34,239 nt of DNA from contig JAQYLJ010000015.1 in the NCBI GenBank assembly GCA_028720145.1, forward strand, positions 1-34,239, in the 5' to 3' direction. Positions 3,886 through 22,701 of the stretch are shown in pieces. The notes below the pieces were generated by a model. That model had not been told where the DNA came from, made no database searches, and saw nothing but the letters and a program-made list of their open reading frames with translations. The number at the start of each line of letters is the position of its first letter. Position 1 is the first letter of the stretch. Made by a program: the position numbers and the translations under genes. This DNA comes from Clostridia bacterium (lineage in GTDB: Bacteria > Bacillota > Clostridia > Oscillospirales > CAG-272).

Positions 3886-4797
3886 ATGATACTGTGTGTC
3901 GGCGAGATACTCGCGGATATGATCGGCTCCGAGCGAGACGGTAACTTCTATTATGAACGAAAGGCGGGAGGCGCGCCCTTCAATGTGGCATGTGCCGCAC
4001 AGCGGTTCGGCGCGGAGGTCGCGTTCGTCGGCTGTGTCGGAGACGACCTGATCGGTGCGTTCTTAAAACAGTTTGCCGAGGACCGCGGGTTCTCCCATAC
4101 CGAGATTGCAACAGACCCCGCGCGGAATACCACGCTCGCCTTTGTTGAACTGGACGAGCACGGCGACCGTTCCTTCTGCTTCTATCGCCACGGCACCGCC
4201 GACTACCATCTGCCGTCTGTCCCCGACGCATATCTCAGACGGGCGACGCTGGTGCATATCGGCTCGCTGATGCTCTCGACGGAAGAGGGGCGCGCCTACG
4301 CGCTTCTGCTCGCCGACCGCGCACACCGCGCGGGGATCCCGGTGAGTTTCGATGTCAATTTCCGCACCGATATCTTCCGCGACAAAGACGCCGCCCTCGC
4401 CGTCTATCGGCAAATGTTCGAAAAAGCGGATATCGTGAAGTTCTCCGAAGACGAAGTGGAGATGTTCACCGAGGATTATATTCGGGATCGGCTCAAAGAG
4501 AAACTCGTGTTCGTCACACTCGGAAAGCACGGGGCGGAATGGCGTTACCACGGCAAAACCCATCGTCTCCCCGCGCTCGACCTCAAACCCGTGGACACAA
4601 CGGGGGCGGGCGACGCTTTCTATGCAGGCGTGCTGTCGCGGCTGGACGGCAAGCGGACGGACGATTTGAGCGACGCGCAACTCGACGAAGCCCTGAAATG
4701 GGGGAATGTCGCCGGTTCGCTCAACACCTTGGGGCACGGAGCGATCGACTGCCTGCCGACGCAGGAAGAAATCCTCCGCGCACTCGAAACCTACTGA
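3886..4797 (+). CDS. scrK: PfkB-family carbohydrate kinase, likely fructokinase
   Basis: N-terminal MILCVGEILADMI and GGAPFNVACAAQRFG; C-terminal signature DTTGAGDAFYAGVLSRL. Confidence 0.88.
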   Translation: MILCVGEILADMIGSERDGNFYYERKAGGAPFNVACAAQRFGAEVAFVGCVGDDLIGAFLKQFAEDRGFSHTEIATDPARNTTLAFVELDEHGDRSFCFYRHGTADYHLPSVPDAYLRRATLVHIGSLMLSTEEGRAYALLLADRAHRAGIPVSFDVNFRTDIFRDKDAALAVYRQMFEKADIVKFSEDEVEMFTEDYIRDRLKEKLVFVTLGKHGAEWRYHGKTHRLPALDLKPVDTTGAGDAFYAGVLSRLDGKRTDDLSDAQLDEALKWGNVAGSLNTLGHGAIDCLPTQEEILRALETY

Positions 4798-4897: not shown

Positions 4898-7800
4898 ATG
4901 AATATCGGTACCAAACCAATCAAACGCATCCTCCTTGGCGGGAGTTTTGTACTTGCCTGTCTGTTTCTTATCGTGATCTTAACGGGCGTATGCTTCGTTT
5001 GGGCAGAGAGCGGGGAGGTATCCATGCAGTCGGAGGGAGACGCGTTTTCTCTGACGGATACCGCCTATGACGCGGGAGAGGGCTTCGTTTTCAGCGCGGA
5101 TGTGAACTTCTCGGACGGAGACGGCTATGCCGCAGGGCTGGTATTCGGCGCGGCGGACGGCGCTCACTATTGGGTATTTAACATCGACCGGGAAGCCAAC
5201 CGCGTCAAACTCATGTACTTCGCCCCGAATGAAGGCGGCAATATGGCGGCGACGGTTCTGAAAGAAACCTACTTCATCGGGACCGACACCATGACGGCGG
5301 CGGATACCGCCCTTGTGGCGCCCAAAGTCAGAACGGTCTCTTCGGTACAGCTGAAAGTGATTCTGACCCCCGATACCGAGACGGGCGCGGTGTACGGTGA
5401 GTTTTACGCCGACGGCATCCGTCGCTTCCGCACTACCTATGAGGACGACGATGTCATTGACTTAAACAACCTCGCAGCGGGCGTCACCTACGAGGGCGGC
5501 AACCTCGGGTACAATACCTACCGCTCCCGCGTGACCTTCTCGGATGTGACGGTCGGAAAGAGCGACTATGCGTATTATACCGAAATGTACCGTCAGCAGT
5601 ACCATTTCTCCCAGTTCGCCCATTGGAACAATGACCCGAACGGACTCGTGTACTACGACGGCTGGTATCACCTGTATTATCAGCATCATCCTTACAGCAA
5701 CTATTGGAGCGATATGTATTGGGGTCACGCCCGCAGTCGGGATCTGACCCATTGGGAACTGCTCCCGATCTGCCTTTTCCCGAATACGGGGAACGAGGGA
5801 CTCGGAGAGGGAGACGGATATGCGTGGTCCGGCTCCGCGATGGTGTACCGTCCCGGGATGTCTGCGGATATTGACGCGCAGAATTGGTTCCCGACAGGGG
5901 AGGGCACAGGACTGATTGCCTTCTATACCCGTGACGGGGCACATCAGGATCAAGTCATCATGACCTCGGACGACGGAGGGTTCTCTTGGACGCGCCGCCG
6001 CCTGATAGCCCAATCGGTCGCGACCGCCGTCGACGGCATCACGGGAAAGACCGATTGCCGCGACCCGAAAGTATTCCCCGTCGAAACCGACGGAGAGGGG
6101 AACACCACCCTGTGGGGCATGGCGCTCACCGGTATGGCGACCAACCGCGTCTGGTTTCTCAAATCCTCGAACCTGCTCGACTGGTCCTACGCAGGCGGAT
6201 TTGCGATGACGAGGCCCGAGTGTCCCGATGTCGTCCGTCTCGACCTCGACGGCACCCCCTACACCGTCATGACCTTCTCGGGGAGAAGATATCTCGTCGG
6301 GCAAATGCAATATGACAGCGGATCCGGCGAGATTCGGTTCCTCGATCGGAGCGGAGAAGTGGTGCGGGACGCGAGCGACCTCACGCAGGTGATGGACTAC
6401 GGTCCCGATTCCTACGCAACACAGACCTTCTATATTGACGATCCTTCCGGTGAGTTTTACGGACAGACTCTCTCCATCAGCTGGTTCAGCGGCGTGCCGA
6501 ACGCCCCCGCCTCGATCGAGAGCGGCGCCCTCGCGGCGGCGCGCGGCAGATGGAACGGGAGCGGCATGACCATTCCCGTCCGCTGGGGTCTTACCTCGGA
6601 AGGAGAGAAGATTCTTCTCACCGAGACCCCGATCGTATCCGATGCGAGCGGCTTTGCGTCTCTCAAGACCGAATTGCTCCACACGCAGAACGTGTCTCTG
6701 AACGCTTCTTCCGGCAACCTGTTGCAGGAAGTGAACGGGCGCTGTCTCGAACTCGCCCTCACGCTGAAAAACCCCGCGAGTGTCCCCGTCAGTATTCGTC
6801 TGAACCAAAGCGAGGACGAGTACATGGAAATCGGCTGGAACGCCGAAGAGGGGTACTATGTCGACCGCTCCCACGCGGGGGATGCGGGTCTCGGGCTCGG
6901 GAATTACGCGGTGCGGTACACGACCGGACCCGTTGCAAGTACGACCCAGTCCTTCTACATTCTCTCCGACCAAGGGGGGATGGAAATCTTCTGTGAGGAC
7001 TTCACGCGTCCTTTCTACCTGTTGACCTTCTCTTCGCCTTACGCGACGGGCGCTTCTCTTTCGGTCGGCGGCGATGTGACCGTCAACGATTTGACAGTGA
7101 ACGCCATCGGGACCGTCTGGCGTACCGCGGGCGAGACCGAGGAAACGGTGCTCTATCTGGAATCCACCGATATTCGTCTCGATACCTCGCTCACCCCCTC
7201 GAAAGAAATCTTCGCGTACGCCACCTCGGGCGGGGACTTCACCTGGGAGATCCTCTCGGGTGAGGACTTCATCACCCTGACCCCGACCGCGCACGGCGCC
7301 ATGATTGCCTCCAAACAGGCGGGGAACGCCGTCGTCCGCGTCACCTCGGGGAACGCGAGCCGCGAGATTCAGGTCGCGGTGACCGCGGGACAAATCGAGA
7401 GCGATCTCCCGTTCTCGTCAGACGGCAAATACAGCGGGGAATGGTACTTTACTGCCGACGGTCTTGTCGGATACCGCCCCGCGGGTGACGGATTCTTACT
7501 GTCGAGCCAAAGCGGCGGGGACTTCACCTATACCGCTTCGCTCGATTTGGGCGACGGAGCTGCGGCGGCACTGGTATTCCGCGCACAGGCGGATATGAGC
7601 GACTATTTGATTGCCAACTACGACCGCAACGCCGGCGTGGTGAAACTGTGGTCGCCCCGCGGGGAGATTGCCCGTGCTTCGTTCACGGTGTCCGACCCTG
7701 CGCACCTGACCCTGAAAGTAAGAGCGGAGGGCAGAACCGTCACGGTGAGCGTGAATGGAGAGACCGTTATCCAAGCGACCCTGGGTGAAAATGAACCGAC

Positions 7801-8572
7801 CGAGGGGCTCTTCGGACTGAATGTCTGCGCGACCCGCGCGGTGTTCCGCTCGGTCACCCTGTTCCGCGAAAGCTGGACCTACGTGGGCGGTAGTCTCGCG
7901 GTGGTGGGAGATGTCAGTCAGACGGTCTACGAACTCTATAACCGCACGCTCGGGAATACGAAAATCAGCCCGAATTTCTATACCTCCGACGGCAGAAATC
8001 TCGTCCTGTCCGAGCAGTATTTCGCGTGCCTGCCGGCAGGTGTCTATACCTTCTCCGCGAGAGGGACTCTCTCCCGCTTCGACTTCACGGTTACGGTGCC
8101 GGAGGGGACAAACGGGTTCATGCCGATAGAGGCGCTCGACCTCGAAGCGGGCAGTAACGCCGTCCTATTCCTCGGACGGTATGTCCCCGCGACCCTGACC
8201 TTGGACGGTGCATCCGTTACATACACTCTCCGTGACGGCACCCTGACGATTCCCGCGCGCTATCTTGCCGCAGGGGAACATACCCTCGTGCTCGATACCC
8301 ATACCGTCACGATTCGGGTGGCGGAAGAAAAAACCGTCAATTTGGATACCCCCAAGGAGACTGACAAGCCGGGAATGGACGAGCCCACAGGCAAGTGGCT
8401 GCCACTCATCATAGGCTGCTCGGTCGGCGGTGTCCTCGCGATTGCTGCCGCGGTCACGACCGTCATTCTGATAAAAAGAAAGAAACGGAAAAATCTCTCC
8501 GTGACAGATCTCCCGGAAACCCCCGATGGGGAAACCGGAGAGAACGCAGATACTCATCACTCTGAATCGTGA
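4898..8572 (+). CDS. Cell-surface GH32 fructan hydrolase (levanase/beta-fructosidase) with jelly-roll/CBM66-like flanking domains and C-terminal TM anchor
   Basis: N-terminal hydrophobic signal; GH32 motifs WNNDPNGLVYYDGWYHLYYQHHP, CRDPKVF, RPECPDV; C-terminal WLPLIIGCSVGGVLAIAAAVTTVILIKRKKRK. Two GFVFSADVNF.../FTYTASLDLGDGAAAALVFRA... domains resemble each other. Confidence 0.9.
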   Translation: MNIGTKPIKRILLGGSFVLACLFLIVILTGVCFVWAESGEVSMQSEGDAFSLTDTAYDAGEGFVFSADVNFSDGDGYAAGLVFGAADGAHYWVFNIDREANRVKLMYFAPNEGGNMAATVLKETYFIGTDTMTAADTALVAPKVRTVSSVQLKVILTPDTETGAVYGEFYADGIRRFRTTYEDDDVIDLNNLAAGVTYEGGNLGYNTYRSRVTFSDVTVGKSDYAYYTEMYRQQYHFSQFAHWNNDPNGLVYYDGWYHLYYQHHPYSNYWSDMYWGHARSRDLTHWELLPICLFPNTGNEGLGEGDGYAWSGSAMVYRPGMSADIDAQNWFPTGEGTGLIAFYTRDGAHQDQVIMTSDDGGFSWTRRRLIAQSVATAVDGITGKTDCRDPKVFPVETDGEGNTTLWGMALTGMATNRVWFLKSSNLLDWSYAGGFAMTRPECPDVVRLDLDGTPYTVMTFSGRRYLVGQMQYDSGSGEIRFLDRSGEVVRDASDLTQVMDYGPDSYATQTFYIDDPSGEFYGQTLSISWFSGVPNAPASIESGALAAARGRWNGSGMTIPVRWGLTSEGEKILLTETPIVSDASGFASLKTELLHTQNVSLNASSGNLLQEVNGRCLELALTLKNPASVPVSIRLNQSEDEYMEIGWNAEEGYYVDRSHAGDAGLGLGNYAVRYTTGPVASTTQSFYILSDQGGMEIFCEDFTRPFYLLTFSSPYATGASLSVGGDVTVNDLTVNAIGTVWRTAGETEETVLYLESTDIRLDTSLTPSKEIFAYATSGGDFTWEILSGEDFITLTPTAHGAMIASKQAGNAVVRVTSGNASREIQVAVTAGQIESDLPFSSDGKYSGEWYFTADGLVGYRPAGDGFLLSSQSGGDFTYTASLDLGDGAAAALVFRAQADMSDYLIANYDRNAGVVKLWSPRGEIARASFTVSDPAHLTLKVRAEGRTVTVSVNGETVIQATLGENEPTEGLFGLNVCATRAVFRSVTLFRESWTYVGGSLAVVGDVSQTVYELYNRTLGNTKISPNFYTSDGRNLVLSEQYFACLPAGVYTFSARGTLSRFDFTVTVPEGTNGFMPIEALDLEAGSNAVLFLGRYVPATLTLDGASVTYTLRDGTLTIPARYLAAGEHTLVLDTHTVTIRVAEEKTVNLDTPKETDKPGMDEPTGKWLPLIIGCSVGGVLAIAAAVTTVILIKRKKRKNLSVTDLPETPDGETGENADTHHSES

Positions 8573-8586
8573 GGTGATAGCATACC

Positions 8587-9564
8587 ATGGCAACAACCAT
8601 ATCCGATGTCGCGAAACACGCAGGTGTCGGCGTCGGCACCGTCTCTCGGGTCATCAATGACGACAAGGGCGTCAACGAGGAGACCCGCGAGCGGGTGAAA
8701 CGCGCGATTGCGGAACTCGGCTACCGTCCGAACCGCATGGCGTCCCGCCTGCGGCGAAACGAGAACAAGCTGATCGCCCTGATGGTGCCTGTCATCGATC
8801 ATCCGTTCTTTGCGAAACTCGCGTATTACATTGAAGACGAAGCAGACCGATTCGGCTATTCGCTCTTACTGGTTTCCTCACAGCAGAGAGCTTGGAAAGA
8901 GAAGAACATTCTCGAATGCATTAAGCATCGGGAGGTCGACGGTGCGGTGTTCGTCACCCACTACGACCATGACGAAGAGGATCTCCGCGCCTGTCCCATC
9001 GTCTCTCTCGACCGACACTTCGGCGCCGATGTCCCCTATGTCACCTCGGATAACTACGATTCCACCTATCGCGCCATCGAGTATCTCATCGAGCACGGCT
9101 GCCGGCGGATCGGCTATATCGGCTCGAAACCGATCGTGGCATCCGAGGTGATGGAGAGGGAACGCGCCTATCGCGATGCCGTCGCACGGTACGGTCTCGA
9201 CCCCTGTATCGTCAATGCGTGTATTCCGCACGGCGACGAGTGGCGGGTGGTCTCCGACTTCTTCCGCGACTATCCCGCCCTCGACGGGGTGTTCGCCTCG
9301 GGGTATTCCATGGCGCAGGCGGCGTATCTGCGGGCGGAGGAACTCGGCATCGACATTCCCGGGCAGTTGCAGCTCATTGCCTATGACGGCTCGTTCGGAC
9401 AATGGGATTTTCAGAAGAAACGCGGGGTCACCTGCGTGGAACAACCCATCGAAGAGATGGCGCGAGAACTCGTCCGTCTCCTGATTGCCAAAATCCGCGG
9501 CGAGACGCTCGAAACACGCCATGTGTTCCCCGCGCGTTTCCTCGTCGGCGAGACCACGCGATAA
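8587..9564 (+). CDS. LacI-family transcriptional regulator
   Basis: N-terminal HTH MATTISDVAKHAGVGVGTVSRVINDDKGVNEETRERVKRAIAELGYRPN, followed by a periplasmic-binding-like sugar domain. Confidence 0.95.
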   Translation: MATTISDVAKHAGVGVGTVSRVINDDKGVNEETRERVKRAIAELGYRPNRMASRLRRNENKLIALMVPVIDHPFFAKLAYYIEDEADRFGYSLLLVSSQQRAWKEKNILECIKHREVDGAVFVTHYDHDEEDLRACPIVSLDRHFGADVPYVTSDNYDSTYRAIEYLIEHGCRRIGYIGSKPIVASEVMERERAYRDAVARYGLDPCIVNACIPHGDEWRVVSDFFRDYPALDGVFASGYSMAQAAYLRAEELGIDIPGQLQLIAYDGSFGQWDFQKKRGVTCVEQPIEEMARELVRLLIAKIRGETLETRHVFPARFLVGETTR

Positions 9565-9626: not shown

Positions 9627-10979
9627 ATGAAACGCATTCGGAACATACTCGTGGCGGCACTTCTGATTCTCGCCATGATCTTCGCTTTTGCCTCTTGCGG
9701 CACCGACGGTACCGGCGATGGCGACGGTGACGGCGATACGGTCGAGCCGGAAGTCGACGAACAGGGCAATACCGTCGTGCGTGTGATGGTCCATGTGGAC
9801 GCGAAGTCCGCGGAGGGCATCGCCTACCAGAAGCGCATCGACGCGTTCAACCGTGCGTACGCGGACGAAAAGATTCGCGCCACCATTATCTACAAAGCAC
9901 GCACCAGCGGTGCCAGCTCCTATGAGACCGAGCTGAACACCATGCGGCTCGAGGGGACTCTCCCCGATATCATCACGTTCGACGCACCGAACTGCGCGAG
10001 TTACGCCTTCTCGGAACTTATCTACGACATTACCGATTTGGTGCCGACCGATGTGCAGAACGATTTCTACGCCATTTCTCTGAACACCTATAACGGACGC
10101 CTGTACGGACTCCCGATTCAGGAATCCAGCGCGGGATTCTTCTATAACAAGAAGATCTTCGCCGCCGCGGGAATCGATGTCTCGGCGTATTCGGTCGAGA
10201 ATCCTTGGACGTTCGCACAGTTTAAGGATGTCTGCGCCCGCCTGAAGAGCTATCTCGGGGACGGGAAAGCGGTGGATATGCGTCTCGACGCGACCAAGGA
10301 CGAGACCGCGACCTATCTGCTCTATCCGTTCATCTACGCCGCGGGCGGGGAATTTACCTCGGCGGACGGCTTTACCGCACAGGGCTATCTGAACTCCGAC
10401 GCATCGAAGAACGGGTTCCGTTTCCTGCGGGAGCTCGTCGACGCAAAGTATACTTCCAACACCATCAATCCGACCGATTTCTTTACCGGGAAAGTCGGTA
10501 TGTATCTCTCCTCGGGTTGGACCATTCCCGACCTCGATAACAAATATCCCGACACTTTTGCTTCGCGTGACGACTGGGGTCTGCTCCCCTATCCGAAAGA
10601 AGTCTCTGCCGCCAGCGCGACGGGGAGCTGGTCGTTCGGTCTGACCGATAACGGGAAGGCGGACAAGACCCCCGCTGTGAAACTGCTCCTTTGGCTGACC
10701 TCCGCGGAGAGCTCCAAAGCCATCACCGATACCACCGGGATGATCCCCGCCCGCAAGTCGGTCGAGACCAATTATGCGGTCGGCTCTCCCGAATACACCC
10801 TTTTGAAACAGTTGGAACTCAGCGGGCGTGCTCGCCCCGCCACCGTGGCGTATCCGAACTTCTCGACCGCGTTCAGCCAGATCATCTACAAGATCTCCAT
10901 CGGCTCGGTGGATGATTTCATGGCGACGATTGACACTCAGACCGCTACCCTGCAAAGGGAAATGAACAGCAAAAAGTAA
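9627..10979 (+). CDS. Extracellular sugar-binding lipoprotein of ABC transporter
   Basis: Lipobox AFASC-G, acidic GDGDGDGD linker, YETELNTMRLEGTLPDIITFD, PWTFAQFKDVC; lies before two permease genes; RBS AAAGGAG. Confidence 0.9.
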   Translation: MKRIRNILVAALLILAMIFAFASCGTDGTGDGDGDGDTVEPEVDEQGNTVVRVMVHVDAKSAEGIAYQKRIDAFNRAYADEKIRATIIYKARTSGASSYETELNTMRLEGTLPDIITFDAPNCASYAFSELIYDITDLVPTDVQNDFYAISLNTYNGRLYGLPIQESSAGFFYNKKIFAAAGIDVSAYSVENPWTFAQFKDVCARLKSYLGDGKAVDMRLDATKDETATYLLYPFIYAAGGEFTSADGFTAQGYLNSDASKNGFRFLRELVDAKYTSNTINPTDFFTGKVGMYLSSGWTIPDLDNKYPDTFASRDDWGLLPYPKEVSAASATGSWSFGLTDNGKADKTPAVKLLLWLTSAESSKAITDTTGMIPARKSVETNYAVGSPEYTLLKQLELSGRARPATVAYPNFSTAFSQIIYKISIGSVDDFMATIDTQTATLQREMNSKK

Positions 10980-11081: not shown

Positions 11082-12113
11082 ATGATACAACCAACCTATC
11101 TCCTTGCCGCCAAAAGCAGCAACGGAAGCGCACAAATGATTCGTTCCACCCTCATCATCGCCCTTGTGTTCGTCGCGGCGTTCCTTGTTCTGTTCGCCGT
11201 GGACCTCTGGCGTAAGCGGGGGAAGAGAGACGGATACCGTCTGCGCTCGTCCGTCACGGCATATCTCATGCTGCTGCCCGCCGTGGTGCTGGCGTTCATC
11301 TTCATCATGCTCCCCATCCTCTATTCTCTCGGGTACGCTTTCACGAACTTCAACCTCATGCGCCCCGAGAAGACCATGAACGACTTCGTGGGTCTTGCGA
11401 ACTTTCAGCGCGCGTTTGAGGAGATTCGGGACCGGGGGACGCTGTACCACGCCATTATCAATACGCTGAAATTCGTTGTCGGCGTGGTGCCCTTGCAGAT
11501 CGGGCTCGCGCTCGGACTCGCCATCTTCGTCAACCGCCCGAAACCCGGGGTCAAGATTTTTAAGGTCTGCTTTTTCGCCCCCGTGGTCATTTCGCTGAGT
11601 GTCACCTCGTACCTGTGGCTCTCCATCCTCTCTCCCTCCGAGACGGGACTGCTCAACTCTCTCATCGGGATTTTCGGAGCCGAGCCGCACGACTGGCTGC
11701 GCGACCCGAAGACCGCCATGCTGTGGATCGTCATTCTCAGCGCATGGCAGGGATGCGGATACCAGATGCTGATTTTCCTCTCGGGGCTTACGAACATTCG
11801 CTCCGACCTCTACGAGGCGGCGTCTCTCGACGGGGCGGGCGCGTGGCAGAAGTTTTTGCACATCACCTGCCCGGGTCTGCGTTCCACCTTCGTCTTCGTT
11901 TTGGTCACGGTCTTTATCGGCGCGTGCCGCGTGATGATACAGCCCATGCTCATGACGGGGTATCAGGAACATACCGTCACCCTGAGTTACTTTATGTATT
12001 ATACCGGTTACCGCGACTATTCGGTCGGGTATTCCTCCGCCGTGGCACTTTTGATGACCATTATCATCGGGATCATCACATTCGTCCAACGCCGTGTGTT
12101 AAAGGAGAAATAA
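11082..12113 (+). CDS. Sugar ABC transporter permease (MalF-like)
   Basis: Multiple TMs; EAA-like loop LYEAASLDGAGAWQKFLHITCPGL. Confidence 0.92.
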   Translation: MIQPTYLLAAKSSNGSAQMIRSTLIIALVFVAAFLVLFAVDLWRKRGKRDGYRLRSSVTAYLMLLPAVVLAFIFIMLPILYSLGYAFTNFNLMRPEKTMNDFVGLANFQRAFEEIRDRGTLYHAIINTLKFVVGVVPLQIGLALGLAIFVNRPKPGVKIFKVCFFAPVVISLSVTSYLWLSILSPSETGLLNSLIGIFGAEPHDWLRDPKTAMLWIVILSAWQGCGYQMLIFLSGLTNIRSDLYEAASLDGAGAWQKFLHITCPGLRSTFVFVLVTVFIGACRVMIQPMLMTGYQEHTVTLSYFMYYTGYRDYSVGYSSAVALLMTIIIGIITFVQRRVLKEK

Positions 12114-12114
12114 G

Positions 12115-13044
12115 ATGGAACAGACAGCCAAACACATGGGCGCGACTCTGCCGCCCCTCCTTCATACCAAACCCCCGAAAAGGGTGATCGTCGGAAACAT
12201 TGTGTACTATGTTTGCGGGATTCTCTTGTCGATTCTGTTCTTATTCCCGCTCGTCTATATGCTCGCCACCTCGACCAAGAGCGAGTCGGTCTTTGCCGCC
12301 GACGCGGGGACGCTGCGTATGTTTCTGCCGGATTTCGCCCACCTCGGCACCATGTTCGAGAATTACAAGACGGTTCTGACCGAGTACGACATCTGGAAAT
12401 ACGCCCTGAACAGCCTTGTGTACGCGGGCATCGTCATCGTCCTCAATATTATCGTCAACGGACTCGCGGGTTATGTCATGGCAAAGATGAATTTCCCGGG
12501 GAAACGGCTCTTCTCGTTTCTCATCATCTTCCTCATCGTGGTGCCGGTCGAGACCTCGATTATCCCCTTGTACCTGATTGTCAAGACCATGCTCGGACTC
12601 AAGGGTTCGCTCTCGATTCTCGGCGTGATTTTCCCCGCCACCATCAGCGTGTTCAACATTTTCCTCTTCATGCAGTTCTTTGAGGGGATCCCCAAAGAGT
12701 TTGAGGAGGCGGCGCGCATGGACGGCGCGAACACCATGGACATCTTCTTCCGCATCATTCTTCCGCTCTCGAAGCCCATCGTCGCGACCGTCGCGGTGTT
12801 CTGCTTCATCGGGGTGTGGAACGACTATGTATGGCCAGCGATGATCCTGCCCGTGACCGAGCCGGGAGAGTGGCCTCTCCTGCCGATTCAGGCGGCGCTC
12901 ACCACCATTCAGAGCATCGAGATGATTACCACGGGCGAGGTCATGGCATCGCTTGTCGTCACCAGCATTCCCATCTTCATTATCTATGTTGTCGCACAGA
13001 AATATATCGTGCAGGGCTTCGGTTCTGCCGGTCTGAAAATGTGA
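12115..13044 (+). CDS. Carbohydrate ABC transporter permease (MalG-like)
   Basis: Multiple TMs; EAA loop EFEEAARMDGANTMDIFFRIILPLSKP. Confidence 0.93.
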   Translation: MEQTAKHMGATLPPLLHTKPPKRVIVGNIVYYVCGILLSILFLFPLVYMLATSTKSESVFAADAGTLRMFLPDFAHLGTMFENYKTVLTEYDIWKYALNSLVYAGIVIVLNIIVNGLAGYVMAKMNFPGKRLFSFLIIFLIVVPVETSIIPLYLIVKTMLGLKGSLSILGVIFPATISVFNIFLFMQFFEGIPKEFEEAARMDGANTMDIFFRIILPLSKPIVATVAVFCFIGVWNDYVWPAMILPVTEPGEWPLLPIQAALTTIQSIEMITTGEVMASLVVTSIPIFIIYVVAQKYIVQGFGSAGLKM

Positions 13045-13052
13045 GGTCACTG

Positions 13053-15611
13053 ATGAAACACATTCGCGTATTTGCCGCCGTTTTGGCACTGCTTATGGCG
13101 CTCTCTTTCTGCCTGACTTCCTGCGGGGAGAACACAGACACAACAGAGCCGACCGAGAAACCCGGTGATGATACCGCAGTCCAAACGCCGACAGAAACCC
13201 CCATCCTCCACTACGGTTTCGATGAGACCGGTGCGTCGAGCACCACGGTCGAGACCGTCAGCGGGACCGACACGAAAATCTACTATGTGTTCAACGAGGA
13301 AAACGCCGACAACCTGTTTAAGGAGCCGTCCGAAGCGCTCCGCAAAGCGGGCGTGAAAGGCAACGCTCTTTACATGGACGGGTTTTCCACCTATCTGCGG
13401 AACTCCGACTTGAATGTCCCCACCAAGGCATTTACCCTCTCGGCGTGGGTCGCGCCGCGCGTGTTCGAGAACCTCGCGTACTACTCGGGTTCCTCTGCCG
13501 CCGCGGGTCAGCCCCGCCTGACCTCGGTCATCGACTGGGGCGATATCGAGGCGGGTGAAGGCGTTCTCATGGGCTACGGCAGACTCGGGCTCTGGGGCGT
13601 GCAGCTCGCCCTGCGGAATCGGGACACCTACGAGGAATTTGTCGTCTCCTATTACGACCCGCTGAATGCGTTACCGCTCTATGAGTGGTCGCATATCGCC
13701 GTCAGCTTCGACGGCGATACGGGGTATATCGCGCTCGCCTATAACGGGCAGATCGCCTATGAAGCCATCATCCCCGAACTGGTGGGCACCTCGGTCATTC
13801 CGTCGGGAGAACCCCTGTATATCGGACGCTATACCCCCTCGAACACCCAGACCGAATTTGCGGTGAATCGACAGATGATAGCGGGACTGCTCGACGAGGT
13901 GAGCATCTATCGCTCGTCTCTCTCCCCCGCCGCTCTTGCCGGCGTGTATCGGGAATGTGCGGTGAACGGCGTACACCCTACGCTGGATTTCAGCGAGATT
14001 GCGCTGGATTCCTCGGTCTATGAGGGGGACCGTTACCGCCCGCAGTACCATGCGATTCCTCCCGCCACCTGGATGAACGAACCGCATTCGCCCTTCTATT
14101 ACAACGGAAAATACCATGTCATGTATCAGCACAATCCCGCGGGACCCTACTGGTCGCAGATTCGCTGGGGACATCTCGTCAGCGATGATATGGTACATTG
14201 GAAAGCGGTCAAGGACGCGGTCGTCCCCACGGCGGGCATCTGCCCCGAGGGTGTTTGGACGGGCGGTGCCTGTATCGGACCCGACGGCACACCTTGGCTC
14301 GCCATCACCGCGGGTACGACTCAGACCTCGTGGAGCGGGCAGAATATCGCTTTCGCCCATGCGAAGGACCCGACCGACCCCTACTTAACCGAATGGGTAG
14401 TCGAGGAGACGGTCGTCATCGCACAGCCCTCGGACGACTCGCAGGGAGAGCGGGATCAGTTCCGCGACCCGTTCGTCTGGCGGGACGGTGACACCTACTA
14501 TCTGATGGTCTCCACTTCGGTGCCCGGCAGAGGCGGCTCCGCCTGTATCTACACCTCCGCAAATATGCACGAGTGGGAATACCGCGGCTACCTCTATGAA
14601 TGTGATTTTGCCGCATATCCCGAACAGGGCGCGCACTGGGAGTGCGTGGTCATGCTCCCGATTTCCACAAAGGACGGGAAAACCACGAAATACATCCTGT
14701 TCGACTGCCCGCAGTACACGGTGGACGGCTATGTCGTCGATTGCTACTACTGGATAGGCACGTTCGATAAAGAAAACTGCCGCTTCATCGCGGACAACGA
14801 CAAGCCGCAACTCTTCGACCTCGGGCGCGGTGTCTACACCGGGCAGAACGGCTATTGCTACCTGACCGAAGAGGACATCGCGGCAGGGAAAACCGCTTAT
14901 GAGGCGGGACGCACCATTCTCTACGCCATCGCGCAGGGCAAGGACGCGGGCACCGCACAGAATATCAGCGCGGGTTGGGCGCACAACTTCGCGACGGTAC
15001 TGGAACTGCATCTCTCGGACGACGGGACGCAGGTCATTCGGGAACCGATAAGCGAACTTGAAAGCCTCGAGCGCGAGGTGCTCTACGACTATTCCGGCGA
15101 GGGCATCACCGCCGATACGCTGAACGCGGGGATTTCCGAGGTGCGCGGCGATATGCTCCGCATCGATGCGACCTTCACGCTCTCGCCGACCGCCCCCGAG
15201 TATGCCGCGGGGATTCGTGTCAGATACAATCCCACGACCACCGCGCTCGGTACCGAGCATACCGACATCATCTTCGGCTCGTCGGGTGTCTATGTCAACC
15301 GAGACGAGACCACCATGCTCACCTATGTGGCGAATCAGCCCAGTTATACATGGGACAATACGGGGAGAGAATTTTCAGTCACCATTCTCCTCGACCGCTC
15401 CATGCTCGAAGTGTATGTGAACGGGGTCATGAGCTTCACCATGCGGGTCTATCCCAAATGGGGCGACTCGGATTTCCTCTCTGTCTTCGATCAGAACGCG
15501 GGGGTGACTTTCACCTCGTTCCGCGTGGTGAGAATGGGGAGTGCCTACCGTGACGAGGTCACGCCTCCCTACTACGGCAATGTCGGAAACCTCAAAGACC
15601 AAATCGACTGA
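13053..15611 (+). CDS. GH32-family lipoprotein with N-terminal LamG/ConA-like domain; nucleophile motif altered (WMNEPHSP)
   Basis: Lipobox FCLTSC; PPATWMNEPHSPFYYNGKYHVMYQHNPAGPYWSQIRWGHLVSDDMVHW, FRDPFVWRDG, WECVVMLP. Start 13053 (MKHIRVFAAVLALLM) replaces the ORF-track start at 12816, which overlaps the permease. Confidence 0.88.
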   Translation: MKHIRVFAAVLALLMALSFCLTSCGENTDTTEPTEKPGDDTAVQTPTETPILHYGFDETGASSTTVETVSGTDTKIYYVFNEENADNLFKEPSEALRKAGVKGNALYMDGFSTYLRNSDLNVPTKAFTLSAWVAPRVFENLAYYSGSSAAAGQPRLTSVIDWGDIEAGEGVLMGYGRLGLWGVQLALRNRDTYEEFVVSYYDPLNALPLYEWSHIAVSFDGDTGYIALAYNGQIAYEAIIPELVGTSVIPSGEPLYIGRYTPSNTQTEFAVNRQMIAGLLDEVSIYRSSLSPAALAGVYRECAVNGVHPTLDFSEIALDSSVYEGDRYRPQYHAIPPATWMNEPHSPFYYNGKYHVMYQHNPAGPYWSQIRWGHLVSDDMVHWKAVKDAVVPTAGICPEGVWTGGACIGPDGTPWLAITAGTTQTSWSGQNIAFAHAKDPTDPYLTEWVVEETVVIAQPSDDSQGERDQFRDPFVWRDGDTYYLMVSTSVPGRGGSACIYTSANMHEWEYRGYLYECDFAAYPEQGAHWECVVMLPISTKDGKTTKYILFDCPQYTVDGYVVDCYYWIGTFDKENCRFIADNDKPQLFDLGRGVYTGQNGYCYLTEEDIAAGKTAYEAGRTILYAIAQGKDAGTAQNISAGWAHNFATVLELHLSDDGTQVIREPISELESLEREVLYDYSGEGITADTLNAGISEVRGDMLRIDATFTLSPTAPEYAAGIRVRYNPTTTALGTEHTDIIFGSSGVYVNRDETTMLTYVANQPSYTWDNTGREFSVTILLDRSMLEVYVNGVMSFTMRVYPKWGDSDFLSVFDQNAGVTFTSFRVVRMGSAYRDEVTPPYYGNVGNLKDQID

Positions 15612-15625
15612 AAGGAGACAGGGAC

Positions 15626-18193
15626 ATGATACAGAACCGAACACCGAGAAAACGCCTTGCCTCCGTTTTGGCACTCGTCCTCGCCGCCGCGATGCTTCTG
15701 ACGCTTGTCGGCTGCAGCAAGGACGGTGATACGCCTGTGCCCGACGATCCGACTCCCGCCGAGACCGCCGCCGCGGCTCCGCAGAACGGCGGATTCGAGA
15801 GCGCGGACCTCTCGGGCTGGACGGTCGAATGGGGTGACGCGTTCGACAACAGTTGCGTCTCCTCCGAGACCACATTCACCTTTGCCTCCGATGCACAACA
15901 TCAGCGTCTTTCCGTCGACCAGACCGGGAATTGGTATCTGACCGGTAAGGGCTTTGACGGGAAGTATTCGGGTGCCCGTACGGGTTCCATCCGCTCGACC
16001 GAGTTCGTGATGCCCTCCGACGGGGTCATCTCGTTCAAACTCGCGGGCGGCGCACTCACTATCGGCAAAGGGGAGAGTGCCCCCGATAAAGACCCGACGA
16101 AACTCTGCTACCTCGCGGTGTACCGCGCGTCGGACGACCGCATGATCGCGCGGCAGACCAACGACTATTTCTTTGAACATACAGAGGATTATGTCAATGC
16201 CGCCAAATATGCGTCGGGCGCATATTCGACCGATAACTTCAATCTGTATACCCTCTTGCTCAAAGAGTACGCGGGCGAGCGCGTGTATCTCCGCATCGTG
16301 GATAACGACGAGAGTTACTATTACGGCTATCTCGCCGTGGATGACATCCGTGTTGGGGCGAGCGCTCTGCCGCAGACCGAGGGTGCGGCGTTCACCAAGG
16401 TGCGTCTCCCGAGCGGGGAGGTGTCCGAAGTCTCGCCCTATGAAATCGTGAACGGCGGTTTTGAGACCGGCGACCTCACGGGCTGGACCATTGTCGAGGG
16501 CGAGGCGTTCTCGAACGACGGCGTCAATACCGAGAGCGTCTGGTGGAACGAAAATATCCCCTACCGCCGCGACGGGAACTTCCACTACGGATTCTACAAG
16601 CCCTCCGCTACGGGCGTGATGCGCTCGTCCGAGTTCATCCTCGGCGGAAGCGGCTACATCTCCTTCAAACTCGGCGGATGCGCGAACGGGGGCGAGACCT
16701 ATCTCCGTTTCCTGCTCAAAACCGAGAACGGAGAGGGAAAAGAAGTGGCGCGCTTCACAAACGCGAAGTACCGCAACTTCCAGTTCCCCTATGTGCAGAA
16801 CGGGATGCATCTGCTCAACATGGTGCAGTATTACGCGGACTTCTCGCAATACCTCGGCGAGACCATGTATATCGAGGTGGTCGACAGAAATCCCTCGTCC
16901 GACGACCTCGGGTGCCTGACCCTCGACAGCATCAAGACCTATTGGGAGGAAAAACCTGTCTGGTATACCTCCGAATCCTACGAACTCACCTTTGACGGTG
17001 ACATCATGCCGGAGAGCGAGTATCAGGTCGCGAACGGCGGATTTGAGACAGGCGACCTCACGGGATGGACGCTCTCGGGCGAGATCGGGGTGGTCAGCGA
17101 CGCATCGGGCTGGTGGGCGGAGAACCTGCCGTACAACAAGCGCGGTACCTACCTCTTCACCGGCATTGCCCATGAGGGCGGCACCGGCACCCTCACGAGC
17201 TCCGCCTTCACCGTCAGCCCGAACGGGTGGATCACCTATCTGCTCGGCGGCGGCGGGAACAGCGCGCTCTGCTATCTCTCGGTGGTGGATGCCGAGAGTG
17301 GGGAAGAACTCGCACGCTACGGGAACCGCTTCTTCCACGATGCGGGGATCGCGACCATCAATCGCGGGAGCAACCTCGCCAACATGATTCTCTACCGCGC
17401 CGACCTCTCCGCGTTCGCGGGACGCAGCGTGAAACTGGTCGTCACCGACCTCGCGACCTCCGGCTGGGGGCTTATCACCTGCGACAGTTTCCGCACCTAT
17501 TACGCAACTGAGGATTCGGTTCCCACCGACGCGCATCTCGCCGTCGACCTGCTCAACACGGGTGAAACAAATCCGTATCAGGTTGCAAACGGCGGATTCG
17601 AGAGCGGTACGCTCGACGGCTGGACGCTCACCGTCACGGGTGGTTCCGGGGACGGTCAGATCGGCGGCATCTCCTTCGCCGATTCGTGGTGGGCGGAATG
17701 CATCGATTACAACAAGGACGGCGACTTCTTCTTCAGCGGCTGGGAGGGGAGTGAATCCCGGACCGGCACCCTGACGAGTTCGACCTTCACCATTGGCGGC
17801 AGCGGTCTTATCACCTTCAAACTCGGCGGCGGGAAGAACACCGACCTCTGCCGCGTGGAGATCGTCGATACCGAGACCGGCGAGGTCCTCGCCGCGTATG
17901 GGAACACCCTCTTCTCGGACGCGAACTTCGATGCCTGCAAGGGCATCGGGACGACCGAGCACCCGGTCGACGCCGCGAGCAAGGGCGTGTATATGGCGAA
18001 CATGGTGCTCTACCGAGCGGACCTCTCCGACTACCTCGGTCGGACGGTCGTCATTCGTCTGGTGGATAACGCCACGGGCGACTGGGGGCTGCTCTTCGCC
18101 GACAGTTTCGTGACTTACTATGAAAACGCTTCCGATGTGCCGGAGGGCACGGTTTTGGCGGAAAATCTGAATGCAACAAGCACAGATGAATAA
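15626..18193 (+). CDS. Extracellular lipoprotein composed of four 'NGGFExGxLxGW' jelly-roll-like modules (candidate fructan-binding protein)
   Basis: Lipobox LTLVGC; NGGFESADLSGW, NGGFETGDLTGW, NGGFETGDLTGW, NGGFESGTLDGW each followed by TGTLTSS-type, LGGG and VVDNA-type motifs. No catalytic motif recognised. Confidence 0.82.
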   Translation: MIQNRTPRKRLASVLALVLAAAMLLTLVGCSKDGDTPVPDDPTPAETAAAAPQNGGFESADLSGWTVEWGDAFDNSCVSSETTFTFASDAQHQRLSVDQTGNWYLTGKGFDGKYSGARTGSIRSTEFVMPSDGVISFKLAGGALTIGKGESAPDKDPTKLCYLAVYRASDDRMIARQTNDYFFEHTEDYVNAAKYASGAYSTDNFNLYTLLLKEYAGERVYLRIVDNDESYYYGYLAVDDIRVGASALPQTEGAAFTKVRLPSGEVSEVSPYEIVNGGFETGDLTGWTIVEGEAFSNDGVNTESVWWNENIPYRRDGNFHYGFYKPSATGVMRSSEFILGGSGYISFKLGGCANGGETYLRFLLKTENGEGKEVARFTNAKYRNFQFPYVQNGMHLLNMVQYYADFSQYLGETMYIEVVDRNPSSDDLGCLTLDSIKTYWEEKPVWYTSESYELTFDGDIMPESEYQVANGGFETGDLTGWTLSGEIGVVSDASGWWAENLPYNKRGTYLFTGIAHEGGTGTLTSSAFTVSPNGWITYLLGGGGNSALCYLSVVDAESGEELARYGNRFFHDAGIATINRGSNLANMILYRADLSAFAGRSVKLVVTDLATSGWGLITCDSFRTYYATEDSVPTDAHLAVDLLNTGETNPYQVANGGFESGTLDGWTLTVTGGSGDGQIGGISFADSWWAECIDYNKDGDFFFSGWEGSESRTGTLTSSTFTIGGSGLITFKLGGGKNTDLCRVEIVDTETGEVLAAYGNTLFSDANFDACKGIGTTEHPVDAASKGVYMANMVLYRADLSDYLGRTVVIRLVDNATGDWGLLFADSFVTYYENASDVPEGTVLAENLNATSTDE

Positions 18194-18208
18194 CGAAAGG
18201 AGAATAAG

Positions 18209-18364
18209 ATGATGGTTCGGGAACAAAAACAATGGGAATCTCCCCGGTGGGAGATCATCCTCTTCGACTCCCAAGATGTCATTCGGACATCGGGAAACGG
18301 CGTGACGGTGGAAGACAGCGGGTTTGGACAAGAGGTCGGCTGGAACGATCTCTTCACCGACTGA
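18209..18364 (+). CDS. 51-aa micro-ORF of unknown function: MMVREQKQWESPRWEIILFDSQDVIRTSGNGVTVEDSGFGQEVGWNDLFTD
   Basis: Good RBS (GAAAGGAGAATAAG-ATG); fills the gap between the two NGGF-module genes. Missing from the supplied ORF track, whose shortest entries are 60 aa. Confidence 0.7.
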   Translation: MMVREQKQWESPRWEIILFDSQDVIRTSGNGVTVEDSGFGQEVGWNDLFTD

Positions 18365-18404
18365 CACCGCGGAACCGACAGTGCATGACAAGAGAAGGAA
18401 AGGA

Positions 18405-21296
18405 ATGAAATCCATGAAAAAATTGCTATCGATTTTTGTCAGTTTGGTTCTTGTGACGCTGCTGTTCACGCTCTGCTTCGTGGCGGTGAGCGCGAACGAC
18501 ACCGACCCCGTCTGTGACGCTACCCTCGCGGGGTATCAGAATCAGGTGGGCGGCAGCGGACTCCGCGTCATCGCGGAAATCGCGAATGTGAGCGAGTACA
18601 GCGAGATCGGCTTCGTCCTCTCGAACGGGACGAGCGAGAAAACCGTATCGATCACAACCGTATTCACGACCCTGTTGGCGTCGAACGCCGCGGGCGATAC
18701 CTATGAGGCACTGACCGCGAGCGAGGGGCACTACCTCTACGCACTCGTGCTCACGGAAGTGCCGGACATCGACATCACCCTCACCGTCACGCCCTATACC
18801 GTGCGTGCGGATAACGGCACGACCGTGAGAGGGACTACCAAGACCCTCGCGAAGAGCGCGGGCGGCAGTTTCGCCCAAGTGAGCGAGACCGCCAAATACG
18901 AGGTTTTGAACGGCGGATTCGAGAAAGGTGACCTCACCGGCTGGACGCTCTCGGGCGACATCGGCGTGGTCTCGAACGACAGCACCTATTGGAACAACCC
19001 CGATAACACCTACGATAAAGCGGGTGATTACCTCTTTACTTGGTGGAGCTGGAATACCGAAGCGAACGCGGAGATCAACCGCGAGAGCGCGACAGGTACC
19101 TTGACGAGCAGCACCTTTGTCCTGCAACCCTCGGCGTATGTATCGTTCCGCTTCGGTGCGGGTGTCAATAACGCAGGCATCCGTGTGGAATTTGTCAACG
19201 CCGATACAGGCGCTGTCATCGGACAGTTCTTCAACACCTCACCGCGTGACGGGCATCTGATTCCCTACGGCTACAGGTTCTCGAACTCCGAGGAAATCAA
19301 CTGCTATATCCGCGTCGTGGACGAAGCGAGCAGCGGATGGGGCTGTTTCGCGGTGGACGACTTCGTGACCTATTATCCCGCGGACGAGACCCTTGCAGGT
19401 GCGGTTTCCGCCATCAATGCCGTCGCCCTCAAAGAGGAACTGCAGGCAGAGATCGATAATAACCGCCTGACCGCGCAGGGCGACTATACCGCCGATTCCT
19501 ATGCCACTTATGTGACGGCGCTCGCAAATGCCGAGAATACGGTCGGAGGAGTGAATCTGCCTTCGGTCATCACCGCCACGCTGAATACCTTGCGGGATGC
19601 GAAAGCGGGTCTGACCCCGAGAAGCGTGACCGAAGTCACGGGCGCGCGTAAGGAGCTGTCCATCGTCGTGGACGAAAGTTACGAGTTGCTCTTTGCGGAT
19701 TATGTCAACACCGACGGGCTCTCGGGCATCACCTACGCGGTCGCATGCGGCGCGGGCGTGACCTATACCGAGATTGCGGGCGGCGTGACCCTCTTGGCGG
19801 GTTCCTCCGCGGCATCCGATGTTCCCGTGACCATTACGGTATCCTACTACGGAAAGACCGCCCTGACAGTGACCCTCTCGGTCACCGTCACCGAGGATGT
19901 CACGCCGAGCGTGAATACTTCGACCTCCCGTGATTTGGATCTCTACGGTGCCACCGATACCGATAAGACCGTAGACTTCTCTGCCGCGGTGAACAATCCG
20001 GGCGGACTTACCCTGACCTACACGGTGACCCTGAACGGGGAACCCGTGACTTTGACCGATGGCTCGAAACTCGTGTTCTCTGCAACAGCCCCCCTCGGTG
20101 AAGCGTATACCTCCTATGTCTATCATGTGGTTGTCGGCTACACCGTGAACGAGGTCGCGGACACCCTCTCGTTCGATTACACCCTGCGCGTGAAGGACAC
20201 CGCGGGCTACCGTGTACCGAACGGCGGCTTTGAGAGTGGGAACCTCAACGGCTGGCATCTGACCAATTCCGACCTCGGCGCGGTCTCGGACGGCTCCTAC
20301 TACTGGGTGGGCGACGCGGAATCCGCGATCGGCTTTACCTTCAACAAAGACGGCGAGTGGTTCTTCAATGCCTATGCCACCGACAGAGAAAACGCGCTCG
20401 GCACGCTAACGAGTTCTGCCTTCATCATCGGGAACAGCGGCTGGATGACCTTCAAACTCGGTGCCGCGAAGAATGTGAACTCGGTCTATATCGAAGTCTT
20501 CGACGCTTCGACGGGCGAGATTCTCGCACGGTTCGGGAACACTGCGTGGGCAGACCGCACGGACGGCGTGAAGAGCGGTTGCACCATGATTGCCTATAAG
20601 GCAGACCTCTCCGCGTTCCTCGGCAGAACCGTCAAGGTGCGCGTGGTGGATAACGCTTCGAGCGACTACGGGCTCTTCTTCGTCGACAGCTTCAACAGCT
20701 GGTACGACGCGGAGCCGGGCAACGAGTTCGTGACCGCGGTCCCGCAGACCCTGCTCGCGAACAGCATCTACGAAGTAGCGAACGGCGGCTTCGAGACGGG
20801 CGACCTCTCGGGCTGGCACCTCTCGGGCAATATGGGTGTGGTGTCGAACGACAGCACCTATTGGAACGACGCGAACAGAACCTATGACAAAGAGGGGAAT
20901 TACCTCTTTACCTGGTGGAGCTGGAATCCCGAAACGAATGCGGAGGTCAACCGCGAGGGCGAGACGGGTACGCTCACCAGCAGCGTCTTTGTCCTGAAAG
21001 CGGGCGCCATCGTCAACTTCAAGTTCGGCGGCGGCAGCGGCAACCAGAATATCTATATCGAGTTCGTCAACGCCGATACCGGCGAGACCATGGCGAAGTT
21101 CTATAACACGAACGCGAACGACGGGAAGTTGATCGGCTATACCTATCAGTTCACGGGTACCGAAGACACGAACTGCTACATCCGCGTGGTGGATAACGCC
21201 ACGAGCGGTTGGGGGTGCCTGACTGTCGACGGGTTTGAAGTGAACGCCGCCACCAAAGCGGACGGTTATCTCGACGCGACCAATCAGATTCAGTAA
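18405..21296 (+). CDS. Secreted multidomain protein with three 'NGGFExGxLxGW' modules, a FIVAR-like helical segment and Ig-like region
   Basis: Signal peptide MKSMKKLLSIFVSLVLVTLLFTLCFVAVSA; modules at NGGFEKGDLTGW, NGGFESGNLNGW, NGGFETGDLSGW; helical AALKEELQAEID...TLRDAKAGLTPRS-like stretch. Start chosen by RBS at 18405. Confidence 0.82.
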   Translation: MKSMKKLLSIFVSLVLVTLLFTLCFVAVSANDTDPVCDATLAGYQNQVGGSGLRVIAEIANVSEYSEIGFVLSNGTSEKTVSITTVFTTLLASNAAGDTYEALTASEGHYLYALVLTEVPDIDITLTVTPYTVRADNGTTVRGTTKTLAKSAGGSFAQVSETAKYEVLNGGFEKGDLTGWTLSGDIGVVSNDSTYWNNPDNTYDKAGDYLFTWWSWNTEANAEINRESATGTLTSSTFVLQPSAYVSFRFGAGVNNAGIRVEFVNADTGAVIGQFFNTSPRDGHLIPYGYRFSNSEEINCYIRVVDEASSGWGCFAVDDFVTYYPADETLAGAVSAINAVALKEELQAEIDNNRLTAQGDYTADSYATYVTALANAENTVGGVNLPSVITATLNTLRDAKAGLTPRSVTEVTGARKELSIVVDESYELLFADYVNTDGLSGITYAVACGAGVTYTEIAGGVTLLAGSSAASDVPVTITVSYYGKTALTVTLSVTVTEDVTPSVNTSTSRDLDLYGATDTDKTVDFSAAVNNPGGLTLTYTVTLNGEPVTLTDGSKLVFSATAPLGEAYTSYVYHVVVGYTVNEVADTLSFDYTLRVKDTAGYRVPNGGFESGNLNGWHLTNSDLGAVSDGSYYWVGDAESAIGFTFNKDGEWFFNAYATDRENALGTLTSSAFIIGNSGWMTFKLGAAKNVNSVYIEVFDASTGEILARFGNTAWADRTDGVKSGCTMIAYKADLSAFLGRTVKVRVVDNASSDYGLFFVDSFNSWYDAEPGNEFVTAVPQTLLANSIYEVANGGFETGDLSGWHLSGNMGVVSNDSTYWNDANRTYDKEGNYLFTWWSWNPETNAEVNREGETGTLTSSVFVLKAGAIVNFKFGGGSGNQNIYIEFVNADTGETMAKFYNTNANDGKLIGYTYQFTGTEDTNCYIRVVDNATSGWGCLTVDGFEVNAATKADGYLDATNQIQ

Positions 21297-21345: not shown

Positions 21346-22701
21346 ATGAACGACAAACTATTTGACGCATATCCGCTTTTCCATATCACGGGGCGACCCG
21401 GTTGGATCAACGACCCGAACGGTCTGGTATATTTCCGCGGACAATACCATGTTTTCTACCAATACTACCCCGCGGCTACCCATTGGGGACCCATGCACTG
21501 GGGTCATGTCGTAAGTGACGACCTCAAACAGTGGGAGCAGATGCCCATTGCGCTCGCTCCGGGCGGGAAGGGGGATAGAGACGGCTGTTTTTCGGGGAGT
21601 GCCATTGTATGGCAGGACAGAATTTGGCTCCTCTATACCGGCTTTACCGAGAACGGCGGTGGGGATGCCATTCGGCAGGTGCAGTGCCTCGCCTCTTCCG
21701 CGGACGGCGTTCGGTTTGAAAAGCACGGAGTCGTCATCGACGAAAATGATTTGCCCGCAGACTATTCCCCGAGTGACTTCCGCGACCCGAAAGTCTGGCG
21801 GTCGGGAGACAGCTTCTTTTGCGTCGTGGCGGCTCGCCGCGTGGGCGGTCGGGGGCGGGTGCTTCTCTATCGCTCCGAGGATTTGCGGACATGGCATTTT
21901 GTCGGAGACCTCTTCGGTGTGGACAGCCGCGGGAGCATGATCGAGTGCCCCGACTATCGGTCGGACCTCGGACTCCTCATGCTCTGTGAGCAGTTTCAGC
22001 CGCAGGAGGGACATACGCACCTCAATATCCATACCAATCGCTACTATCTCGGGATACTCGATGAGACGAGCGGCTCGTTCCGCCCGACCTCGGAGGGCAT
22101 CTGCGATTACGGCTTCGATTTCTACGCGCCGCAGACCTTTGCGGATACGCCCGTGATGATCGGTTGGATGAATATGTGGGACAGAAATGTTCCCTCCGCC
22201 GATTACGGGTTCGCGGGGATGCTGACCCTGCCGCGCCGACTGGAAGTGCGGGATGGGCGGCTCCGGCAGACCCCCTGTCTCCCCGAGACACGCATCGTCC
22301 GTACCGAAAACGGTATGGGGACTCTCACCGATTGTGCCGTGACAGGTGTCATCGAAGTGCGGGCGCGGGATTTGCGACACCTCACCCTCCGCCTGCGGGT
22401 CAAAGGCGAGCAGTCTACGATCCTTTCCTATCGTGCGGGAGAATGGGTGTTTGACCGCTCGCACGCAGGGGTCGCCATTACGGGCGTGGAACAGGACGCG
22501 GACAGCCGGGCGGGGATTCGTCGGATGCCGGGAGAGGGAGATTATGTGTCCCTCACCGTGGTGATGGACCGCTATTCCGTCGAAGTGTTCGCGAACGGGC
22601 GCGCGCTCACCTCGACCGTCTATCCCGATGCCGATGCGGACGGGATTGTCTTCGAGGCGGATGCCGCGGAGTGCACCTATACCCGCGCGGAACTCGTCTG
22701 A
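21346..22701 (+). CDS. GH32 beta-fructofuranosidase / sucrose(-6-phosphate) hydrolase, predicted cytoplasmic
   Basis: No signal peptide; WINDPNGLVYFRGQYHVFYQYYP, FRDPKVW, MIECPDY motifs. Confidence 0.92.
   Translation: MNDKLFDAYPLFHITGRPGWINDPNGLVYFRGQYHVFYQYYPAATHWGPMHWGHVVSDDLKQWEQMPIALAPGGKGDRDGCFSGSAIVWQDRIWLLYTGFTENGGGDAIRQVQCLASSADGVRFEKHGVVIDENDLPADYSPSDFRDPKVWRSGDSFFCVVAARRVGGRGRVLLYRSEDLRTWHFVGDLFGVDSRGSMIECPDYRSDLGLLMLCEQFQPQEGHTHLNIHTNRYYLGILDETSGSFRPTSEGICDYGFDFYAPQTFADTPVMIGWMNMWDRNVPSADYGFAGMLTLPRRLEVRDGRLRQTPCLPETRIVRTENGMGTLTDCAVTGVIEVRARDLRHLTLRLRVKGEQSTILSYRAGEWVFDRSHAGVAITGVEQDADSRAGIRRMPGEGDYVSLTVVMDRYSVEVFANGRALTSTVYPDADADGIVFEADAAECTYTRAELV

Follow-up and report, generated by a model that had tools for sequence, protein, structure and literature searches.

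Enzyme-free arrays of a CBM38-like module as probable fructan-capture proteins in a GH32 locus of a Clostridia bacterium

INTRODUCTION

Surface glycan-binding proteins (SGBPs) of Bacteroidota, encoded in the SusE/SusF position, are non-catalytic, multi-domain surface lipoproteins whose genes lie beside those of matching hydrolases and an importer. To our knowledge, Gram-positive gut bacteria lack homologues of SusD and of SGBPs. In a survey of loci from Roseburia and E. rectale, polysaccharide binding was attributed to ABC binding proteins and to carbohydrate-binding modules (CBMs) that form part of enzymes (PMC5320581). A further described case from a gut Firmicute is Sas20 of Ruminococcus bromii, also a non-catalytic, multi-domain, polysaccharide-binding surface protein, although it differs from the proteins described below in binding starch rather than fructan, in being an amylosome component, and in its folds (PMC9112005).

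Among fructan-binding modules, the closest described counterpart is CBM38 (formerly X39), the inulin-binding module of the cycloinulooligosaccharide fructanotransferase (CFTase) of Paenibacillus macerans, a GH32 enzyme that contains the founding module of the family (AAG47946.1). CBM38 comprises residues 32-389 of that enzyme, forms two beta-sandwich domains and binds inulin and levan in the low micromolar range; by 2023, two inulin- or levan-binding families had been reported and one more was newly proposed (PMC10076258). Here we describe a clostridial locus in which a module resembling CBM38 is borne by two proteins without an enzyme. The window analysed was the 34,239-nucleotide contig JAQYLJ010000015.1 of a Clostridia bacterium (CAG-272, assembly GCA_028720145.1).

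RESULTS AND DISCUSSION

Seven copies of one module in two extracellular proteins

A module of approximately 165 residues occurs in seven diverged copies on the forward strand, four in the open reading frame at 15626-18193 (protein A) and three in that at 18405-21296 (protein B), each copy being delimited by module comparison and profile matches. Protein A is an 855-residue lipoprotein with the lipobox LVGC, and its residues 50 to 840 consist of modules A1 (15773-16360, E 6.6e-59 with profile A1), A2 (16439-16945), A3 (17021-17509) and A4 (17576-18145, the copy used for folding), joined by short linkers and accompanied by no other domain. The lipobox cysteine (Cys30) was invariant in the alignment column of all 37 protein A orthologues, 26 of which were also picked out by a lipobox pattern search. 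Protein B (963 residues, ATG at 18405) carries a signal peptide and is predicted to be secreted. It begins with an uncharacterised N-terminal domain, followed by module B1 (18897-19379), a FIVAR-like and Ig-like spacer (the FIVAR-like match scoring under the Pfam cut-off), and modules B2 (20208-20723) and B3 (20769-21257). No anchor is evident, and the protein may be released from the cell.

Pairwise identity among the seven modules ranged from 26 to 63%, and 17 alignment columns were invariant, including N-G-G-F-E, a leucine, G-W and a C-terminal aspartate. With BLAST E-values computed for a database size of 1e8, most module pairs were significant by themselves (as low as 2e-72 for B1-B3 and about 2e-45 for A3-A4), and only the comparisons of A1 with B1 and B3 were weak. 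In six-frame translation, the NGGFE motif occurred seven times in the window, always within a module, and the 1.9 Mb genome has no module outside this set of seven. The repeat is therefore far above chance level, and an earlier reading made from the sequence alone, which had described seven repeated modules divided between a lipoprotein (four) and a secreted protein (three), was accurate in this respect; its interval of 15784-21250 correctly runs from the first module to the last. Its description of both proteins as extracellular also agrees with the lipobox of A and the signal peptide of B, as does its description of them as non-catalytic with scans of Pfam and NCBIfam, which recognised no catalytic domain in either protein and returned no family above cut-off.

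Gene content of the surrounding locus

The genome has three GH32 genes, all inside the window, and Pfam matches confirmed the flanking genes as GH32, as had been proposed from the sequence. GH32-1 (4898-8572, forward; PF00251 E 3.7e-47) is secreted with a C-terminal membrane anchor and has a CBM66-like domain on either side of its GH32 domain, the C-terminal copy matching CBM66 of Bacillus subtilis SacC (4azz) with E 4.5e-15 and the N-terminal copy with E 2e-4. The locus thus holds two unrelated types of fructan CBM, the CBM66-like domains of GH32-1 and the repeated modules. Further genes follow on the same strand: a LacI-type regulator (8587-9564; PF00356 and PF13377), an ABC sugar-binding lipoprotein (9627-10979; PF13416 E 3.1e-29), two ABC sugar permeases (11082-12113 and 12115-13044, read from their translations), and GH32-2 (13053-15611; PF13385 and PF00251), a lipoprotein with a LamG-like domain and a GH32 domain. 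Downstream of proteins A and B lies GH32-3 (21346-22701, forward; PF00251 E 1.3e-86), a cytoplasmic enzyme without a signal peptide. Judged from their translations, a PfkB-type sugar kinase, probably a fructokinase (3886-4797, forward), and an ABC ATPase of the MsmK/UgpC type (1135-2562, forward) upstream appear to round out a locus for fructan use. Elsewhere in the window, the reverse-strand gene at 31375-33792 encodes, by its translation, a lipoprotein resembling a 5'-nucleotidase/metallophosphoesterase with N-terminal repeats.

The nucleophile motif of GH32-2 is WMNEP, with glutamate where aspartate is usual; the corresponding motif of GH32-3 is WINDPNG. Glutamate at this position marks endo-inulinases. 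The motif WMNEPH or WMNEAH was present in 54 of 60 GH32-2 orthologues, the other six giving no motif match, and GH32 enzymes of Paenibacillus that carry the module also have the glutamate (WMNEP or WMNEA). GH32-2 and its relatives are possibly endo-acting or cyclising fructanases.

Proteins A and B are, with high probability, non-catalytic fructan-capture proteins that resemble SGBPs. Each module would be a beta-sandwich CBM; the lipid anchor would tie protein A to the membrane and display four modules on flexible linkers, and the secreted protein B would display three more. Together they would concentrate chains of inulin, levan or both beside the surface-bound GH32-1 and GH32-2, which would cut the captured chains, leaving the pieces to be taken in by the ABC transporter and finished in the cytoplasm by GH32-3. 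Fructan binding, multivalent capture and this division of labour are all features that we infer for the locus.

Association of the modules with GH32

We assessed whether the neighbourhood of modules and GH32 genes extends beyond this genome. A contig scan found 196 relatives, and GH32 was present within the locus stretch examined in 66 of the best 76, although these loci came mostly from related gut MAGs and were chosen by similarity, so that they are not independent cases and the proportion is inflated. The commonest gene order was GH32-2, the four-module lipoprotein, the second module protein and GH32-3. Because of this selection, controls at the level of genus and phylum were added. Within the genus, modules were found in 6 of 36 genomes, all six with a strong GH32 match on the same contig, compared to 3 of the 30 module-free genomes with strong GH32 (p 4e-5). 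In a draw of 399 genomes from the phylum, 44 were GH32-positive and all four genomes with modules were among them (p 0.0012, with the window's own genome left out). The specific association with GH32 that the sequence-only reading had anticipated was accordingly upheld at both levels. The whole locus is accessory within the genus, being found in the same 6 of 36 genomes. Standalone module lipoproteins also occur in Paenibacillus (L045:4160-5503) and Izimaplasma (L073).

Large GH32 enzymes of Paenibacillaceae carry the modules in their N-terminal part and in many cases have SLH anchors as well, which bears out the earlier suggestion that similar modules are attached to GH32 enzymes. One such protein (L174, 1494 aa) starts with a signal peptide and two modules, continues with part of a third module, LamG and GH32, and ends in a further module. 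It aligned with GH32-2 over 811 aa (34% identity, E 5e-126) and with protein A over 499 aa (38%, E 6e-96), so that a single polypeptide corresponds to two neighbouring genes of the window. This fusion of what the window splits in two makes a good case for a common substrate of module and enzyme, and module-GH32 fusions occur in many species.

Relationship to CBM38 and other families

The Paenibacillaceae proteins also link the module to CBM38. In several of these GH32 proteins (L152, L153, L174 and others), a pair of modules that starts close behind the signal peptide and precedes GH32 spans 352 residues (58-409, for example). The module is likely to be CBM38 or a sister family, as it is matched by the published description of CBM38, with the likeness in position, size and fold being that of homologous Paenibacillaceae proteins rather than of the P. 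macerans CFTase itself. NCBIfam contained no CFTase model naming the Paenibacillus proteins, the plasmid collection yielded no CFTase record, and a text search pairing NGGFE with GH32 gave no match. The possibility, raised beforehand as a point against the sequence-only reading, that the modules match a characterised CBM family is probably borne out by CBM38, judging from domain limits and fold. What sets them apart is that CBM38 was described as part of an enzyme, whereas here the module is repeated three- and fourfold in enzyme-free proteins that are lipid-anchored or secreted.

Other families were considered and rejected. CBM66, the levan-binding module of B. subtilis SacC, is likewise a fructan-binding beta-sandwich fused to GH32, but profiles built from 7 and from 87 modules missed its structures (4azz, 4b1l and 4b1m) in the PDB, unlike GH32-1 of the same locus, which does match CBM66. 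CBM_4_9 (PF02018) resembles the modules in its overall fold and in an (N)GFE..GW motif near the N-terminus, and scored 17.7 bits for protein A and 11.2 bits for protein B against a cut-off of 25.9 bits; over 87 modules the best E-value was 0.0011 and none exceeded the cut-off. The NCBIfam model NTTRR-F1 (NF033675, cut-off 70 bits) gave 40.1 and 39.0 bits, through the short N-terminal motif only.

A counterpart in a SusCD locus

The location directly after SusC-SusD is the usual place of SGBPs. On a plasmid of Catenovulum adriaticum (Gammaproteobacteria), an unannotated 652-aa lipoprotein with three modules (L143:20470-22428, reverse strand; module profile E 6e-24 at 1e7 sequences) comes directly after a SusC-SusD pair, with module-bearing GH32 proteins close by, making it a candidate SGBP. 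The same plasmid encodes further module proteins, with 18 matches. Protein A shares with SGBPs that it is a non-catalytic surface lipoprotein adjoining matching hydrolases, while the window locus differs from SGBP loci of Bacteroidota in belonging to a Gram-positive-type cell, in using ABC import, and in lacking SusC and SusD. No sequence relation between the modules and solved SGBPs was found in the PDB search, and neither A nor B matched the SusD families PF07980 or PF14322. Of the original comparison to SusD/SGBP proteins, then, the SGBP half is independently favoured by the position of the Catenovulum protein, and the SusD half falls away, as nothing is shared.

Module clades beside other enzymes

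Ten of the 76 loci had no GH32. Modules adjoined GH66 in one locus (L070) and GH97 in another (L055), and in five others (L054, L061, L063, L072 and L076) they lay beside GH130-like proteins with F5/8 domains. GH66 is the dextranase family, and L070 and L055 may represent a dextran-type counterpart of the window locus. The latter five loci and L078 form a parallel locus type in Acholeplasmatales and Clostridia with a separate module clade, in which the partners are the GH130-like F5/8 protein (5 of 6 loci), GLUG-motif proteins, CBM_X2 proteins or DUF1861.

Since modules of the same family lie beside GH66/GH97 and GH130-like enzymes, the module alone does not prove fructan as the substrate; a module family confined to fructan is ruled out, and the exclusive dedication to fructan claimed from the sequence does not hold. 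The same loci lend some weight to the explanation that the modules of proteins A and B bind another polysaccharide, such as an alpha-glucan like dextran, and that their GH32 neighbourhood is historical. However, in a tree of 168 modules, for which the bootstrap had not fully settled, the GH66/GH97 and GH130-like modules formed their own clades (support 99/94 and 97/89), separate from the modules of the window, of which A1, A2 and A3 clustered with modules from the same lipoprotein position in other species. Given also that the genome has no GH32 genes other than those around the modules, and that fusion to GH32 occurs in many species, we regard this explanation as very unlikely. At position 38, an aromatic residue was present in 73 of 76 modules from GH32 loci versus 3 of 11 modules from other loci, which makes this column a candidate specificity site.

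Predicted fold

AlphaFold2 predicted module A4 (from 87 sequences) as an all-beta beta-sandwich with pLDDT 94.1 and pTM 0.90, in agreement with the proposal of repeated beta-sandwich modules. For the whole of protein A (pLDDT 83), four beta-sandwich stretches were predicted with pTM 0.46, so the arrangement of modules appears flexible and their mutual placement uncertain. The PDB yielded no solved structure of the module and no close solved fold, and by sequence no full-length homologue, only matches to the short N-terminal motif. The folds closest to the A4 model (TM about 0.5) were phage tailspike, reelin and gingipain domains together with several CBMs (CBM4-2, CBM22, CBM61, and porphyran- and alginate-binding modules), so that the predicted similarity to solved CBM structures is moderate.

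The fold bears on two further explanations. The first, in which the two proteins serve as adhesins or matrix proteins attaching the cell to levan-containing biofilm or mucus and do not feed GH32, would fit the gingipain cleaved-adhesin domains and reelin repeats among the fold matches, as well as a protein B with FIVAR- and Ig-like spacers and no obvious anchor. It sits poorly with the operon-like place of the genes, which are flanked by GH32 genes and preceded by an ABC transporter, with the fusion of modules to GH32, and with the SGBP-like position in a SusCD locus, and we consider it about as unlikely as binding of another polysaccharide. The second, in which the modules have only a structural role, as spacers or stalks, and bind no sugar, draws on the many invariant residues (NGGFE, GW and the final aspartate) that look structural and are common to the clades without GH32. 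Yet protein A is almost wholly modules and would have nothing else to hold out, the predicted fold is CBM-like, and the exposed-type positions 38, 39, 45 and 51 are more than 90% aromatic in modules of GH32 loci; of the explanations weighed here, this is the least probable.

Implications

The module itself is probably already known, and what is new is its stand-alone, lipid-anchored arrangement, the breadth of that arrangement, and the SusCD counterpart. More tentatively, and as a possibility that we hold with less than even confidence, the modules could constitute an unnamed CBM superfamily of which CBM38 is a branch. Such a superfamily would provide Gram-positive loci with stand-alone SGBPs, its clades tracking the substrate (fructan, dextran-type and GH130-like glycan), and the same module would act as SGBP in a SusCD locus of a Gram-negative bacterium. 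If fructan capture by proteins A and B is correct, these conserved, enzyme-free, lipid-anchored arrays would be a dedicated capture layer in the fructan loci of many Clostridia of the ruminant and poultry gut.
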